From a virus, in the IMG/VR virus record IMGVR_UViG_3300037137_001341, positions 1 to 64,000 of that record: a stretch of 64,000 bases of DNA. One strand, 5' to 3'. How positions within the stretch are numbered: position 1 is the stretch's first letter; every line of letters begins with the position of its first letter. A program made the translations under genes and the position numbers. The notes below the pieces were generated by a model, which worked only from the letters and a program-made list of their open reading frames with translations, was not told the origin of the DNA and made no database searches. This document shows, in pieces, positions 17,498 through 41,673 of this stretch.

Positions 17498-18832
17498 GTG
17501 ACCTACGACTACGAGCCCAACGCTCCGATCGACCGCCTCCGCTGGGTGGCGAAGACGTACGAGCACATGCCGGTGGTCGCGTGGGAGACGATCCGGGTCG
17601 CGCTGAACACTCTCGGTGTTGAGCTTCTCCAGCAGGAGAACGCGCTCTTCGATGGCACCGATGGCACCTGGGGCGTAGCCGCATCCTCGCGGGAGATGCA
17701 CTGGCGCAACGAGTTCGGGTTCGAGCGAGGTATCCGTGGCGCTCTGACGGCGAGACGGATCTCCGAGCTACTTACGATGCTTGAGCCGGAGCTTCCGCCG
17801 GATTCCGAATACGACTTCCTCTTTCCGTGGGTCGCCGCGCAGCTAGGACCGATCGCGAAGCGGACGCAGCGCGCCTGGAAACAGGAGCAGGAGGGTCGCA
17901 TCACGCATCCTCACGCGATGCACTGGTACGACGAGGCACCGATTTTCACAGCCATCGCGGAGGCGCTCACGCGGCGCGGCACCGCCATCGCTCAGTGGGC
18001 GCTCGCGAATCACATCGATCTCGGTAGGGTGACGGCCGCCGAGGCGATCGAAGCAGCGAAGAACTTCAAGGTCGTCGTCCGTGTGCCGCAAGGCCCAGTC
18101 GTCTACGAGTACGGCGACGGCTGGACCGTGCAGGAGCTTCCGCCGGAGGCGCTCGAAGCCGAGGGTAAGGTGATGCAGCACTGCGTAGGGACGTACTGCG
18201 AGCAGGTGCGCAGAGGAGACACCGTGATCTACAGCCTTCGCGATCCACAGGGGCAGCCGCACGTGACCATGGAGTTTCTGCCCGCAAGCGGTCGGTTCGA
18301 GCAGATTTACGGCAAGCAGAACGAGAGGCCGAAGCCGGAGTACGAGGCTCGGGTACGTGCGTTCATCCGTGACAAGTTCGACGCGGCTCCCGCGGCGATG
18401 CTCATGGCGGGTGCAGATCCGAAGAGTTTGGATCTGCGCGGCGCGTACCTGCGCGATGCGAACCTGCGCGATGCGAACCTGCGCGATGCGAACCTGCGCG
18501 AAGCGGACCTCGGCCGCGCGACTTTGGCCGCCGCGAACCTGACCGGCGCGAATCTGAGCTACGCGAACCTGACCGCCGCGAACCTGACCGGCGCGAACCT
18601 GAGCTACGCGAACCTGACCGGCGCGAACCTGAGCTACGCGAACCTGACCGGCGCGAACCTGAGCCGCGCGAACCTGACCGGCGCGAACCTGACCGGCGCG
18701 AACCTGAGCTACGCGAACCTGACCGGCGCGAACCTGAGCTACGCGAACCTGACCGGCGCGAACCTGAGCTACGCGAACCTGACCGGCGCGAACCTGCGCG
18801 GCGCAAACACCGAAGGAGCCGTCGGGCTGTGA
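17498..18832 (+). CDS. PcfJ-like domain fused to pentapeptide repeats
   Basis: A 444-aa protein. Residues about 200-300 carry the PcfJ-like pattern: GKVMQHCVGTYC, then a polar loop, VIYSLRD, HVTMEF and IYGKQNERP. PcfJ-like proteins occur on conjugative plasmids and phages with unclear function. Residues about 310-440 are some 25 A(D/N)LxX pentapeptides, which fold as a right-handed beta helix and in some proteins mimic DNA (gyrase protection). I am not aware of this fusion as a standard architecture. GTG start follows GGAGAGTGCTGAC. Confidence 0.7.
   Translation: MTYDYEPNAPIDRLRWVAKTYEHMPVVAWETIRVALNTLGVELLQQENALFDGTDGTWGVAASSREMHWRNEFGFERGIRGALTARRISELLTMLEPELPPDSEYDFLFPWVAAQLGPIAKRTQRAWKQEQEGRITHPHAMHWYDEAPIFTAIAEALTRRGTAIAQWALANHIDLGRVTAAEAIEAAKNFKVVVRVPQGPVVYEYGDGWTVQELPPEALEAEGKVMQHCVGTYCEQVRRGDTVIYSLRDPQGQPHVTMEFLPASGRFEQIYGKQNERPKPEYEARVRAFIRDKFDAAPAAMLMAGADPKSLDLRGAYLRDANLRDANLRDANLREADLGRATLAAANLTGANLSYANLTAANLTGANLSYANLTGANLSYANLTGANLSRANLTGANLTGANLSYANLTGANLSYANLTGANLSYANLTGANLRGANTEGAVGL
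18533..18803 (+). repeat. 30-bp tandem repeats encoding pentapeptides
   Basis: About nine near-identical units alternating GCGAACCTGACCGGC and GCGAACCTGAGCTAC, in frame with the pentapeptide-repeat domain. The near-identity at DNA level, including third positions, points to recent expansion by slippage or recombination. Confidence 0.85.
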
Positions 18833-19011
18833 CCTACGAGTACCAGTGCACCGATCCCGCGTGCCACCACGAGTGGGAGGCCGAGCAGAAGATCACGGCG
18901 GCTCCTCTGCGCACATGCCCGAAGTGTGCGAAGGCGACGGCGAAGCGCCTGATCTCGAAGAGCGCGTTCGTGCTGAACGGCGAAGGCTGGTTCAAGAGCG
19001 GGGGGTACTGA
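18829..19011 (+). CDS. FmdB-like zinc ribbon protein
   Basis: A 60-aa protein opening MTYEYQCTDPACHHEWEAEQ and continuing CPKC..A.RLISKSAFVLNGEGWF, the typical layout of the FmdB/CxxC small regulatory family (Y-x-C-x(2)C-x-H...CPxCG...). Usually a transcription-associated zinc ribbon of uncertain role. GTG overlaps the previous stop and the end overlaps the nucleotidyltransferase ATG. Confidence 0.75.
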   Translation: MTYEYQCTDPACHHEWEAEQKITAAPLRTCPKCAKATAKRLISKSAFVLNGEGWFKSGGY

Positions 19012-20597
19012 TGTACGAGCCGAACGCCTCCGAGGTACATGCCCGGTCGGTCGCGCTGATGCGCTTCCTGTCCGCCGTCGCGCGCCACGCGCATGTGGCC
19101 GAGCACGTGTACGTCGTGGGAGGAGCCGTCAGGAACTACGTCCTGGGCGAGCCCATCAAGGACATTGACGTTGTCGTGGACAGCATCGGAGCGCGTCACG
19201 ACTCCGAGTGGTTCGCTCGTCGGATCGCGACCGAGATCCCGACGTCCACGAACCTCACGACGAACCAGTACGGCGTCGCGATCCTGACCATCAAGGGCGA
19301 CTGGTCCCTCGACGGCCACCCGATGCAGGGCGAGGTCATGGAGATCGCGAACGCCCGCGCCGAGTCCTACGGAGGCGGCGGCCAGGGGTACAAGCCCACG
19401 GACGTGCGCCCTGCGACCATTGAGGAGGACGTGTACCGGCGCGAGTTCACGTTCAACACGCTGCTCTGGCGGCTCTCCGATCTCGCCGACGGTCCAGACG
19501 GCGCTCCGATCATCGACATCACCGGGCGGGGGCTGATCGATCTGGAGAACCGGCAGATCCGCACGCCGTCGCCCGCGGACCAGACCTTCTCGGACGACCC
19601 GACGCGCATGCTCCGGGCGGTGAAGTTCGCGCTCCGGTACGGCTTCGAGATCCCCTCCGAGGTCGTCGAGTCCATCCGACGGAACGCCGGCACGCTACGG
19701 GATGTGCCCTGGGAGCCGGTGACAGCGCTCCTGGTGAACAACGTCCTGCGCATGGAGAACGCGCTCGACGGGCTCCCGATGCTCGCCCAGTTGGGCCTGC
19801 TCGACGTCCTCGTGGACATCACGCGACAGGGGCCGGCACGGGCCTACCTGAGCCGGCAGATGAAGGAGGAGCGCCGCCCCCAGCTTCTGGTGCTCATGCT
19901 CGACGCCGGCTTCGACCTGGACATCCCCGTCGCCAAGCTCACCCCGGAGCAGCGGGAGCGCCTCCTGGCGGTCACGGGGGACATGACAGACGCAGACGCG
20001 GGGGCCTTTCTGACAGCCGTCGAGAGGCCCCCGGTGGACAACATGCGGGTCATCTCGACGCTGGGCCTCAAGCCGCACGACAGGGGCCTCATCGGGCCGC
20101 TGGCGCGCGAGGCGCTGCTCGGCCACCCATCGCTCGCCGACGATCCGATGGAATTAACACGGCGCGTCATCGGGTCCTGGCCGGGTCTGCAGCGGAACGC
20201 CGCGAAGAAAGTGGTCTATGCTGCCGTATTCCTTGAGGAATCCAGCCGCGAGGAGCTTCTGGCGTGGTGGTCGGAGCACGTAGGACATGTGCTCCTGCCG
20301 AAGCTGTACGCCCACCACATGACCATCGCCTTCAAGCCGAGCCCGGAGGTTCTTGGGCTCCTGCCTCTCGGGGCTCGCGTCCAGGTACATGTCGTGGGCT
20401 GGGGCGACGACGGGCAGGCGCAGGCGGTCGTGGTGCGGGCCAACATCCCGAGCGCGAACCCGGTGCCGCATGTGACGGTGGCGACGGCCGAGGGGGTCTC
20501 TCCGGCGCACTCGAACGCGCTGCTGTCAGAGCCGCCGTCCTGGGTCGTGGTGTACGACGGGCCGGTCCTACACGGCACCGTGGGGACGTTCCCATGA
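19011..20597 (+). CDS. CCA-adding/poly(A)-polymerase-type nucleotidyltransferase fused to 2H phosphoesterase
   Basis: A 528-aa protein. N-terminal class II nucleotidyltransferase: VVGGAVRNYVLG at 35-46, metal-binding D51 and D53 in KDIDVVV, RREFTFNTL at 143-151, and DDPTRMLRAVKFA at 195-207, the neck region of CCA-adding enzymes. After a helical middle, a C-terminal domain has HHMTIAF near residue 433 and HVTVAT near 487, the paired H-x-T/S motifs of 2H phosphoesterases (2',3'-cyclic phosphodiesterase type). One chain could therefore open a cyclic phosphate and add CCA. The next two genes overlap it and encode phosphatase and kinase folds. Confidence 0.82.
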   Translation: MYEPNASEVHARSVALMRFLSAVARHAHVAEHVYVVGGAVRNYVLGEPIKDIDVVVDSIGARHDSEWFARRIATEIPTSTNLTTNQYGVAILTIKGDWSLDGHPMQGEVMEIANARAESYGGGGQGYKPTDVRPATIEEDVYRREFTFNTLLWRLSDLADGPDGAPIIDITGRGLIDLENRQIRTPSPADQTFSDDPTRMLRAVKFALRYGFEIPSEVVESIRRNAGTLRDVPWEPVTALLVNNVLRMENALDGLPMLAQLGLLDVLVDITRQGPARAYLSRQMKEERRPQLLVLMLDAGFDLDIPVAKLTPEQRERLLAVTGDMTDADAGAFLTAVERPPVDNMRVISTLGLKPHDRGLIGPLAREALLGHPSLADDPMELTRRVIGSWPGLQRNAAKKVVYAAVFLEESSREELLAWWSEHVGHVLLPKLYAHHMTIAFKPSPEVLGLLPLGARVQVHVVGWGDDGQAQAVVVRANIPSANPVPHVTVATAEGVSPAHSNALLSEPPSWVVVYDGPVLHGTVGTFP

Positions 20598-21097
20598 GGC
20601 CGACGCGCTTGGAGGTCTTCGACTTCGACAACACGCTGTTCCGGTCCCCGGACAAGCCTGCGGGGTGGCCCGAGGGCAAGGGCTGGTGGGGCCGGCCCGA
20701 GTCCCTGCAGGAGCCGTGCGTGCCGACACATCCCACAGCGGACTGGTGGATCGAGGAGACGGTCAGCCAGGCCCGCCGCGCGATCGACGACCCGGACACG
20801 CTGGCCGTCCTGATGACGGGGCGGCTCGTGAAGCGCTTCACCGAGCGCGTCCGCGACCTGCTCGGGCAGATGTCCCTGGAGTTCGACGAGGTGCACCTCA
20901 CGACGGGAGGCGGCACCCTGCCGTTCAAGCTCAATGCGATCCTACGGATCTTGGAGGAGCGCCCCGAGATCGAGTACATCAGGATCTGGGACGACCGCGA
21001 GGAGCACATGCCGGAGTTCGCGCGGGTGCTCGACGAGACGGGGATCCCGTACGACCTGCGGCTCGTGGACGCGGACATGAAGGAGGCTCTGTGCTGA
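20594..21097 (+). CDS. HAD-fold phosphatase of the Swiss Army Knife RNA-repair type
   Basis: A 167-aa HAD protein. Motif I is VFDFDNTLF with D10 and D12. Motif II is LMTGRL. Motif IV is IWDDREEHMPEF. The opening LEVFDFDNTLFRSP and the following GWW tract match the HAD_SAK family linked to RNA repair, where it is expected to remove 3' or 5' phosphates. ATG overlaps the nucleotidyltransferase stop, and the stop overlaps the kinase start. Confidence 0.78.
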   Translation: MRPTRLEVFDFDNTLFRSPDKPAGWPEGKGWWGRPESLQEPCVPTHPTADWWIEETVSQARRAIDDPDTLAVLMTGRLVKRFTERVRDLLGQMSLEFDEVHLTTGGGTLPFKLNAILRILEERPEIEYIRIWDDREEHMPEFARVLDETGIPYDLRLVDADMKEALC

Positions 21098-21525
21098 GAG
21101 CGATCATCATGCGAGGGCTCCCCGGATGCGGGAAGAGCACGCTGGCCGCCGACCTGGCGCGCGAGGAGCCGCTCGACGTCTTCTCAACCGACGACTACTT
21201 CGGCGACCCGTACACCTTCGACCCGAGCAAGATCAGCGAGGCACATGCCTGGAACCTGCGCCGCTGGATCGAAGCGGCGCAGCGAGGCGTGAGCAACATC
21301 GCGTGCGCGAACACGAACATCCACGTCTCCGAGGTCGCGCCCTACTGGGCGACGGCAGCGGCCTACGGCTACGAGCCGGTGATCATGCAGCTGGACTGTA
21401 ACCCAGAGGTGTCCATCGCGCGGAACGTCCACGACGTCCCGGAGGCAGTCATCCGGCGCATGTACGCGGCGATGCCGGAGCAGGAAGCCCTCTTCCCGCC
21501 ATGGTGGACCGTGGAGCACGTGTGA
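21091..21525 (+). CDS. P-loop polynucleotide-kinase-like protein
   Basis: A 144-aa P-loop protein. Walker A GLPGCGKST lies at residues 9-17. STDDYF at 32-37 is typical of T4 Pnkp/N4BP2-like kinases, where the Asp activates the 5'-OH. A lid Arg is likely in ARNVHDVPEAVIRRM. The protein is short, a bare kinase domain. With the two preceding genes it makes an RNA 5'-kinase, phosphatase, cyclic phosphodiesterase and CCA-adding set. GTG overlaps the HAD stop. Confidence 0.78.
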   Translation: MLRAIIMRGLPGCGKSTLAADLAREEPLDVFSTDDYFGDPYTFDPSKISEAHAWNLRRWIEAAQRGVSNIACANTNIHVSEVAPYWATAAAYGYEPVIMQLDCNPEVSIARNVHDVPEAVIRRMYAAMPEQEALFPPWWTVEHV

Positions 21526-39199: not shown

Positions 39200-40396
39200 A
39201 TGGGAAGCCTCGCCACAATTCACGCCGCAACGGACGCGGCACCGGTCATTGACCTGGCCGACGTCCGGCGCCGCCTCACGGCGAACCGCACGGCGCTCGC
39301 CGGCCGGTTCTGGGAGCGCGCGGACATTCTGCAGGGCTTGGACGTCGCTGCAGTCGCCGCGGAACATGTGCTCATGGTTTCGCCGCCTGGCACGGCGAAG
39401 TCTGACCTTGCCCGCACGTGGGCCGCGCAATTCGCGGGCGTCTACCGGGAGGATCTGTTCACCCGGCAGAGCACGGAGGCGGACCACCTCGCGTACCTGG
39501 ACGTCGGCAAGTTCAGCACCCCACCGCACGTGTACGTCTACAAGACGGAGGGCAAGATCACGGAAGCACACTTCGCGTTCGCGGACGAGTGCTTCAAGGC
39601 CACGGGCGGCTTCCTGAACGCCCTCCTCGGGTGGCTCAATGAGCGCAGCGTGCGCGGCGGGCATGTGTCCCCCTTGATCACGTGCGTCGCCGCCAGCAAT
39701 GAGTTTGGCGAAGACGAAAGCGTGGCCGCGCTCGAAGATCGGTTGCTGATCCGGTACGAGGTGACGCCGATCGGGAAGCGAGCAAACCGGCTGGCCTTCC
39801 TCGCGGCCAGCGCCCAGCCCGCCGCGCCGCTCACATTGGAGCCGATCACGGTGGACGAGATCCGGGCGGCACATGTCGCGGCCCGGTCGCTGCCGGTCGA
39901 CGCCCTCGTCGTCGAGGCGGTAGCCGACGTCCAGGATGCGCTGAGGGGCGCCGGGGTCTATGTCTCGGACCGCCGGGCCCGCAAGTGTATCCGAATCCTG
40001 CAGGCCTATGCCTGGGTCACGGGGAGCGCGACGGTCGAGATCGACCACGTTGACTTCCTCCGGGATGTGCTCTGGCGCCGGCCGGAGGACAAGCCCGCGG
40101 TGCAGACTGCGCTCGGTGCCGTGAACCGGGGCATGATCGGCGAGATCAAGGTGATCGTCACCCGGCTCCTGGACATGTACCACGAGGCCAAGGGGCAGGC
40201 CGACTTTCCGAGCCGCGCCGCTCGCATCGCGGAGCAGCTGGATCTCGGCGGGCGCGAGATCAAGGCCAAGTACGGTGGCCGGATCCCGGACGCGGTGAAA
40301 GAGCGCGCCAAGGGCTACCTCGGCGAGCTTCGCAGTGCCTACGAGCACTGCAAGCAGGTGGACGCAAAGCTCCCCTACGCGGGGGGCGGCGTCTAA
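39200..40396 (+). CDS. MoxR/RavA-type AAA+ ATPase
   Basis: A 398-aa AAA+ protein. Walker A PPGTAKSD at 62-69, Walker B AFADECF at 126-132 with the MoxR-like DExF, sensor 1 AASNEF at 165-170, and a second-region Arg tract (SVAALEDRLLIRYEV). The C-terminal third is a helical lid. MoxR ATPases act as chaperone-like remodelers that work with VWA proteins, and a VWA gene follows. GAAAGGA precedes ATG. It is the core of the proposed MoxR-VWA-SWIM system. Confidence 0.88.
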   Translation: MGSLATIHAATDAAPVIDLADVRRRLTANRTALAGRFWERADILQGLDVAAVAAEHVLMVSPPGTAKSDLARTWAAQFAGVYREDLFTRQSTEADHLAYLDVGKFSTPPHVYVYKTEGKITEAHFAFADECFKATGGFLNALLGWLNERSVRGGHVSPLITCVAASNEFGEDESVAALEDRLLIRYEVTPIGKRANRLAFLAASAQPAAPLTLEPITVDEIRAAHVAARSLPVDALVVEAVADVQDALRGAGVYVSDRRARKCIRILQAYAWVTGSATVEIDHVDFLRDVLWRRPEDKPAVQTALGAVNRGMIGEIKVIVTRLLDMYHEAKGQADFPSRAARIAEQLDLGGREIKAKYGGRIPDAVKERAKGYLGELRSAYEHCKQVDAKLPYAGGGV

Positions 40397-40506: not shown

Positions 40507-41673
40507 ATGCTCACGTTCGCACAAGCTCGACGACGTCACAGCTTCTTCGGAAGCGTCGTGGACGCCAATAACGAGGGCCTCGCAGCCGACGCTTACGCCG
40601 GGGTCACAGGCCTGGGCGGCGAAGCCGGCGGCCTGGTCACGCTCGCGGTCGCCGATACGATGCCCACGGAATATGCCGTGCTGCTGGCGACCGATGACAT
40701 CGCCGCCGCGTTCGCGGCCAGCTGCGCTCTCGAAGCGTTCGCCGAACAAGTCCCGCCGCGGACACCGTACGAGGCACGCAAGATCGCGGACGAGGGCTGG
40801 CGCCGGTTCCGCGTGCTGGCCGACCAGGCCGGTCACCAGGATCACGGGCTCGGCGGGGACATGTCCGCCGCATGGGTCGTGTTCAAGACCGTGCAGGATC
40901 TCCAGCCGGACCCCGAGAAGATCAAGCGCATCGCGCTGCTCGCCGGGCGCATGTACCAGGCGCTCCGCGGCCAGAAGGATCGCCGCGTCAAGGGGATCCC
41001 GGAGGAAGTGATCGGGACGGAAACGGGCGGCGACGTCGCTGCTCTGCTCCCGTCAGAGTGGGCCCTGCTCGCAACGGACCCGACGCGCCGGCACCTGTTC
41101 GGCCAGATCGCGGAACGCCGCGCGCTGCAGTACGAGCGGGCCGGCAAAGAGAAGAAAGCTCGCGGTCCCCTGGTCATAGCCCTGGACGAATCGGGGTCGA
41201 TGGCGGAAGGGCGCGACGAATGGGCCAAGGCCGCGATGACGGCTCTCACGCGGATCGCGTGGGAGGAGAAGCGGCCCGTCGTGATCGTACACTTCAGCAC
41301 GGCAACCCGCGTGCAGGTACTCAAGCCCGGCGACAAGGCGGGTGTGGTCAAGGCGCAGCACACGTTCTTGGACGGCGGAACCGACATCGGCGCCGCTCTC
41401 CGGGTCGGCGTGGACGAGGTTGCAGCCCTCGCGACGCAAGGGCACCGCGGGGCCGACGTCGTGCTCGTGTCGGACGGCGGCGACGCCGGCCAGCGTGTGG
41501 GCGACGCCCTGAAGGATATGTCCAAGGCGGGGACGCGGCTCTGGAGCATCGCGATCGACACGCCGTTCCACGGTCCCCTGAAGGACCAGGCGTCGGAGTA
41601 CATCCACCTGACCGACGCGGACATGACCAGCGCAACGGGCGCGAAGAAGCTCGCCGGGGCGGTGACGCCGTGA
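40507..41673 (+). CDS. VWA-domain protein partner of MoxR
   Basis: A 388-aa protein. N-terminal helical half as in CoxE/ViaA-type partners. The C-terminal VWA domain has a complete [20 protein letters not shown], later FLDGGTDIG (Thr) and LVSDGGDAG (Asp). It likely binds substrates or a metal and hands them to the AAA+ ring. GGAGGACACATG start. The stop overlaps the SWIM gene. Confidence 0.85.

Follow-up and report, generated by a model that had tools for sequence, protein, structure and literature searches.

A phage cassette of a fused CCA-2H protein, a HAD phosphatase and a P-loop kinase as a candidate module for RNA end healing and tailing

Introduction

The repair of tRNA 3' ends by a single protein is known from bacterial CCA enzymes, whose HD domains remove 2',3'-cyclic phosphates at these ends, with the tail restored by the same protein (PMC10673834). 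In jumbo phages, 2H, HAD Swiss-army-knife, kinase and CCA enzymes and RNA ligases have all been listed as parts of RNA repair; HAD_SAK proteins are described there as mostly standalone, and healing enzymes as going with ATP-grasp ligases (PMC7824862). Damage to tRNA tails is also a means of immunity. Cas12a3 cuts the CCA tails of tRNAs, and viral resistance to it is said to need means that are as yet unknown (PMC12851939).

Here we analyze a gene cassette in which four of these domain families occur together. It lies in a stretch of 64,000 nucleotides (the window) that is part of the virus record IMGVR_UViG_3300037137_001341, a linear and possibly partial contig of 116,237 bases. A first-pass annotation, based on the letters and open reading frames of the window, had read the cassette as an RNA end-healing system without a ligase, whose output might be re-tailed rather than re-joined tRNA.

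Results

Organization of the cassette

The cassette comprises three genes on the + strand, at 19011-20597, 20594-21097 and 21091-21525, each overlapping the next end to start. They encode a CCA-2H protein of 528 aa, a HAD protein of 167 aa and a kinase of 144 aa. The junction between the CCA-2H and HAD genes is an ATGA overlap and that between the HAD and kinase genes a GTGCTGA overlap; coordinates and overlaps were read from the sequence and confirm the three overlapping genes that the first-pass annotation had placed in 19011-21525. The cassette sits within a longer run of tightly spaced genes, immediately 3' of a gene for a FmdB-type zinc-ribbon protein (60 aa; 18829..19011, + strand; NCBIfam TIGR02605, E 7.9e-14), which overlaps the CCA-2H gene by 1 base and is possibly a member of the same operon.

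Also upstream of the cassette, at 17498-18832, is a gene for a 444-aa protein with a PcfJ-like region and long pentapeptide repeats (Pfam). Elsewhere in the window Pfam detects MoxR-type AAA+ and vWA proteins, with the vWA motif at 40507-41673 and the MoxR gene probably at 39200-40396; a MoxR-type AAA+/vWA pair has been noted in jumbo phages (PMC7824862). The G+C content of the window is 66.6%. A DNA similarity search retrieved no nearby phage record, and comparison with a defence-system library gave no informative match.

Domains of the three proteins

Residues 1-399 of the first protein (19011..20207, + strand) correspond to a CCA-adding-type class II nucleotidyltransferase. PF01743 (PolyA_pol) matches residues 33-184 (Pfam, E 1.4e-15), the PHROGs match is to a tRNA nucleotidyltransferase (3.7e-33), and a sequence profile match connects the CCA part to the T. 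maritima enzyme (1.7e-24). Curated NCBIfam CCA models match the protein far under their cut-off. The active-site motifs GG (37-38), DxD (51-53), RRxFTxN (143-149) and DDxxR (195-199) are present and kept across the clade of related proteins, the first residue of the clade's (E/D)DxxR motif being D. The CCA and 2H parts were modelled separately. The model of the CCA part has a pLDDT of about 95, and its top PDB fold matches are CCA-adding enzymes, with a TM to the target of about 0.5.

E. coli PcnB carries the signature that marks bacterial poly(A) polymerases, whereas the window protein, 68 clade proteins and E. coli Cca do not. Its absence disfavours a poly(A) polymerase and favours CCA addition, short of proof; by sequence, CCA-adding, A-adding and other 3'-tailing enzymes are hard to separate for certain. 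No HD phosphohydrolase is evident, because the first protein has no match to an HD profile in Pfam and the clade alignment contains no invariant histidine.

The C-terminal part of the same protein (residues 400-528; 20208..20597, + strand) is a 2H phosphoesterase domain. PF08302, the tRNA ligase CPD family of 2H fold, matches residues 455-506 (E 3e-5, above its cut-off), and two His-x-Thr motifs are found, H436-x-T438 and H487-x-T489, in which both His and both Thr are invariant across an alignment of 13 sequences. The best structural matches of the model (pLDDT 86) are CNPase catalytic domains, with E about 5e-4, and a fungal RNA kinase is matched as well. We infer that the domain is a putative opener of 2',3'-cyclic phosphates. 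In the alignment, unfused CCA relatives end at about residue 399 of the window protein, and thus the first gene encodes a whole CCA-type enzyme to which a 2H domain has been appended. This boundary shows that the fusion is real. The first-pass annotation had also regarded such a fusion as notable in itself; the fusion stands, and it is not unique: many phages join 2H domains to CCA domains of this clade.

The second gene (20594..21097, + strand) encodes a HAD_SAK_1 phosphatase of 167 aa (PF10307, E 8.9e-23; 81.6 bits against a curated cut-off of 25.6). All four HAD motifs, DxDxT, TGR, K and DDR, are present, and the alignment places D10/D12/T75/K112/D134 (own numbering) at the motif positions. 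The HAD gene is separate in the window and not in one polypeptide with other repair domains; 2H, CCA and HAD are carried on one polypeptide in the relatives L027 and L049. Searches for the HAD family in one-per-species bacterial and archaeal genomes and in plasmids were negative.

The third gene (21091..21525, + strand) encodes a small P-loop kinase of the AAA_33 family (143-144 aa; Pfam PF13671, E 2e-13). Its GLPGCGKST P-loop and an STDD motif are present, with G8, K14 and D33 invariant in the alignment. The better PHROGs match is to an ATPase (4e-24), followed by a polynucleotide kinase (6e-10), and there are weak matches to PSTK. The closest relatives of the kinase and of the 2H domain are kinase-2H fusions that adjoin Rnl1-type ligases (L093, L096, L097, L098 and L100). 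The proposal of a P-loop 5'-kinase thus holds for the P-loop kinase, on the AAA_33 match and the intact motifs, whereas the specificity for 5' ends of polynucleotides is predicted from relatives and context and not from a specific profile.

Taken together, profile searches bear out the CCA, 2H and HAD_SAK identities (Pfam, with PHROGs in agreement for the first and third genes), and the catalytic residues are intact in alignments of the CCA, 2H, HAD and kinase domains.

Ligase and tRNA genes

No RNA ligase gene adjoins the cassette, as had been noted, and the search of the whole 116,237-base record was negative as well. PF09414, PF01139 and PF09511 gave 0 matches each; no ligase family match was found among genes of at least 150 aa (Pfam, PHROGs), and no ligase-like motif set among genes of at least 200 aa. 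A ligase outside this linear, possibly partial contig is possible; about half of the large relatives carry one. Across clade records, PF09414 is over the cut-off in 7 of 44, PF09511 in 0 of 45, and RtcB is found in 4 of 34, one of them a fragment. Six of the 13 clade records of at least 200 kb have an intact ligase family match over the cut-off and seven have none. Many, but not all, members of the CCA-clade group thus lack a ligase, with partial records weakening each absence. All three families are missing from the large relatives G004, G013, G023, G047 and G072. In the L027 protein, the last 700 residues were searched for a hidden ligase, and none was seen.

The 116,237-base record also contains no tRNA gene, and thus the CCA enzyme would serve host tRNA; maturation of phage tRNAs is disfavoured for the same reason.

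Relatives, fusions and gene neighborhoods

When the CCA-2H protein or the HAD protein was used as a single-sequence query against viral contigs, no matches were obtained, and alignment queries were needed. The HAD alignment retrieved 346 relatives from viral contigs, 80 of which were read; the 2H alignment retrieved nine relatives and the CCA alignment 58 loci. In one-per-species bacterial and archaeal genomes, the CCA clade has only two close matches, both on contigs, probably of phage origin, from metagenome-assembled genomes. In the tree, the window protein falls in a clade of 40 rows (support 100/99), the members of which are environmental, often huge, phages. CPD-type 2H domains occur on three separate branches of the clade (the window, L027 and L187) and LigT-type 2H domains on other branches; the same CCA clade was joined by two different 2H subfamilies.

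The domains of the cassette recur in many arrangements. Single proteins have the order 2H-CCA-HAD (L027) or CCA-HAD-2H (L049), and CCA is also fused to HAD alone (L186). CCA genes adjoin HAD-2H fusions (L094, L095) or HAD genes (L009, L056); these four loci lie outside the window clade in the tree, so the link between CCA and HAD exists in other lineages too. HAD-kinase fusions are found in L028, L032 and L037. A further partner is topoisomerase IB (TopIB), which follows CCA-2H in L187 and L145 and 2H-CCA in L138, L146 and L152. It is also fused to HAD (L005:5974-7500, L013:5935-9051), fused to 2H beside a HAD gene (L012:4745-9261, L016:6001-10013), joined with both in the order TopIB-2H-HAD (L022:3376-6504), or fused or adjacent to HAD_SAK (L163:7754-11521). 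The recurrent fusions in shuffled orders are the main evidence that the domains serve one shared pathway, and their independent recurrence supports the earlier proposal that the domains act together.

Distances between genes lend further support to a shared pathway, as a guide and not a strict test since the records are related. Among records of at least 60 kb, 9 of 16 have a 2H domain no more than 10 kb from CCA (2.4 expected), and 17 of 24 have topoisomerase IB at such a distance (3.4 expected). Only 9 of 45 clade records gave a HAD_SAK match, and several clade members stand alone, with no 2H or HAD detected nearby. One 595 kb phage has a kinase beside Rnl1 and, elsewhere in its genome, the CCA gene beside HAD.

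Several other features were observed among these loci. The small HAD-TopIB fusion of L005 keeps the catalytic His and Tyr, as read from the sequence. An insertion of about 450 residues interrupts the CCA head of L174:4621-8502, where it matches intein splicing and LAGLIDADG profiles, and the heads of L176, L177, L178 and L180 are split at a similar place. A 948-aa protein with two tandem CCA-type heads, the second with a degenerate RRxFTxN motif, occurs in L168:5827-8673, L169, L170 and L122:1402-4248. In L185:4199-12703 (record G058) a 2834-aa protein with topoisomerase IB and, by position, a PF09414 RNA ligase match lies near a CCA-clade gene. A short VASRY-like motif is found near N-termini and between domains in CCA-clade loci (25 of 943 ORFs, compared with 2.7 when N-termini are shuffled), for example in L122:5118-6151 and upstream of CCA heads. 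Many proteins of a 595 kb phage (LR756511; L009-L011), including CCA, HAD and 2H, start with a similar M..F.(E/Q)(F/W/Y) stretch, which recalls the capsid-targeting peptides of T4.

Discussion

Proposed mechanism and alternative explanations

A predicted RNA end-healing and tailing module is well supported for this cassette, and the mechanism outlined below is likely; of its possible roles, the healing of RNA ends combined with the restoring of tRNA tails is the one to which we lean. The 2H domain would open the 2',3'-cyclic phosphate that results from cleavage by a metal-independent RNase, and its CNPase/CPD-like fold predicts a 2'-phosphate as the product. The HAD_SAK enzyme would take off the residual 2'- or 3'-phosphate, and the CCA domain, to which the 2H domain is fused, would restore the nucleotides C, C and A on the exposed 3'-OH of a host tRNA, judging from its fold and motifs. 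In the least certain step, the kinase may phosphorylate 5'-OH ends, making halves joinable by a host ligase or one not seen here.

Tail repair needs no ligase, because only a few nucleotides are missing from a tail-cut tRNA. The view that tRNAs are re-tailed rather than re-joined fits the chemistry of HD-type CCA enzymes (PMC10673834) and the tRNA-less record, but is weakened by the possible ligase outside the contig. Several observations count against tail repair. It requires no 5'-kinase, and the presence of one is a pointer to end joining; the link of many relatives to topoisomerase IB, which acts on DNA, is not predicted by it; and some clade members stand alone, with HAD_SAK in only a minority of the clade records. 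As the kinase does not fit tail repair alone, its presence suggests healing of 5'-OH ends in addition.

The strongest alternative, which we consider rather unlikely, is that the cassette is the healing half of an ordinary sealing pathway. The 2H, HAD and kinase enzymes would make 3'-OH and 5'-P ends at breaks in anticodon loops, a host or off-contig ligase would join them, and the CCA domain would be an accessory mender of tails. Such parts have been described as working with ATP-grasp ligases (PMC7824862), and the kinase-2H fusions adjoining Rnl1-type ligases, the kinase next to Rnl1 in the 595 kb phage, where CCA is next to HAD elsewhere, and the intact ligases in six of the 13 large clade records all agree with it. 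Against this, the three ligase families are absent from the 116 kb record and from five large relatives, and the CCA of this clade is fused to 2H and not to a ligase.

The link to topoisomerase IB raises a different explanation, in which the cassette repairs nicks at ribonucleotides in DNA made by topoisomerase IB or similar enzymes. Topoisomerase IB nicks at ribonucleotides leave 2',3'-cyclic phosphate and 5'-OH ends; 2H, HAD and kinase could heal these ends, and the nucleotidyltransferase could fill or tail them. The proximity of topoisomerase IB to CCA genes and its fusions and adjacency with HAD and 2H agree with such a role. However, no topoisomerase IB was found in the window's record, and we reject it as part of the window cassette; the fold and motifs of the nucleotidyltransferase are those of CCA enzymes and give no reason for it to act on DNA, and giant multi-domain proteins may join functions that work separately. 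We regard DNA repair by this cassette as improbable. The relatives do reveal that, in huge phages, domains for the healing of RNA ends are associated with topoisomerase IB. Similarly improbable is that 2H, perhaps with HAD, destroys host signalling nucleotides or is an RNase, with CCA a separate translation helper fused by chance: such roles have been proposed for 2H domains of phage polyvalent proteins unlinked to ligases (PMC5512222), but they do not predict the repeated union of 2H with CCA, HAD_SAK and kinase in many orders, and in relatives the subfamily to which the window's 2H domain belongs is linked with ligases of Rnl1 type.

For the preferred reading, RNA end healing with tail restoration, the biological setting is a further question. 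Counter-defence against tRNA-cutting immunity is plausible from the predicted activities. The more specific proposal, that the phage re-tails tRNAs and does not re-join them, using a self-contained 2H-HAD-CCA module, its domains shuffled in many phages, to undo immunity that relies on cutting of the tRNA tail or acceptor end, is one we hold tentatively. HEPN-type toxins are expected to leave cyclic phosphates, and the RuvC site of Cas12a3 is expected to leave a plain 3'-OH. Against cuts by Cas12a3, the CCA domain alone might be sufficient. The cassette is thus a candidate, and not a demonstrated, answer to tail-cutting immunity.

Comparison with known systems

Our literature search, which did not extend to the RNA-repair survey of Burroughs and Aravind (2016), found no description of CCA-2H fusions or of their link to topoisomerase IB. 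The parts themselves are already known in jumbo phages, and what is new is their fused, ligase-free arrangement. The jumbo-phage repair parts (PMC7824862) belong to the same four domain families as those of the cassette; here, in contrast, CCA is fused to 2H, each gene of the cassette overlaps the next, and the search for a ligase was negative. T4 Pnkp-Rnl1 likewise heals RNA ends with enzymes of the kinase and HAD phosphatase families, but in the cassette kinase and phosphatase are separate genes, 2H and CCA are added, and the ligase is missing. With the fungal and plant tRNA ligases (kinase-CPD) and CNPase the cassette shares a 2H domain of CPD type, as seen in the structural matches to CNPase and fungal RNA kinase, although this domain is joined to a CCA-type nucleotidyltransferase and not to a ligase.

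The HD-domain CCA enzymes, such as E. coli Cca and M. tuberculosis Rv3907c, resemble the cassette in that a class II nucleotidyltransferase is joined to an activity, predicted in the cassette, for removing 2',3'-cyclic phosphate and phosphate from tRNA 3' ends (PMC10673834). In place of the HD domain, which is not evident here, the cassette would use a fused 2H domain and a separate HAD enzyme, and the adjoining gene encodes a kinase. This comparison suggests that the way in which cellular HD-type CCA enzymes heal and re-tail tRNA has been rebuilt by phages several times, from unrelated domains.
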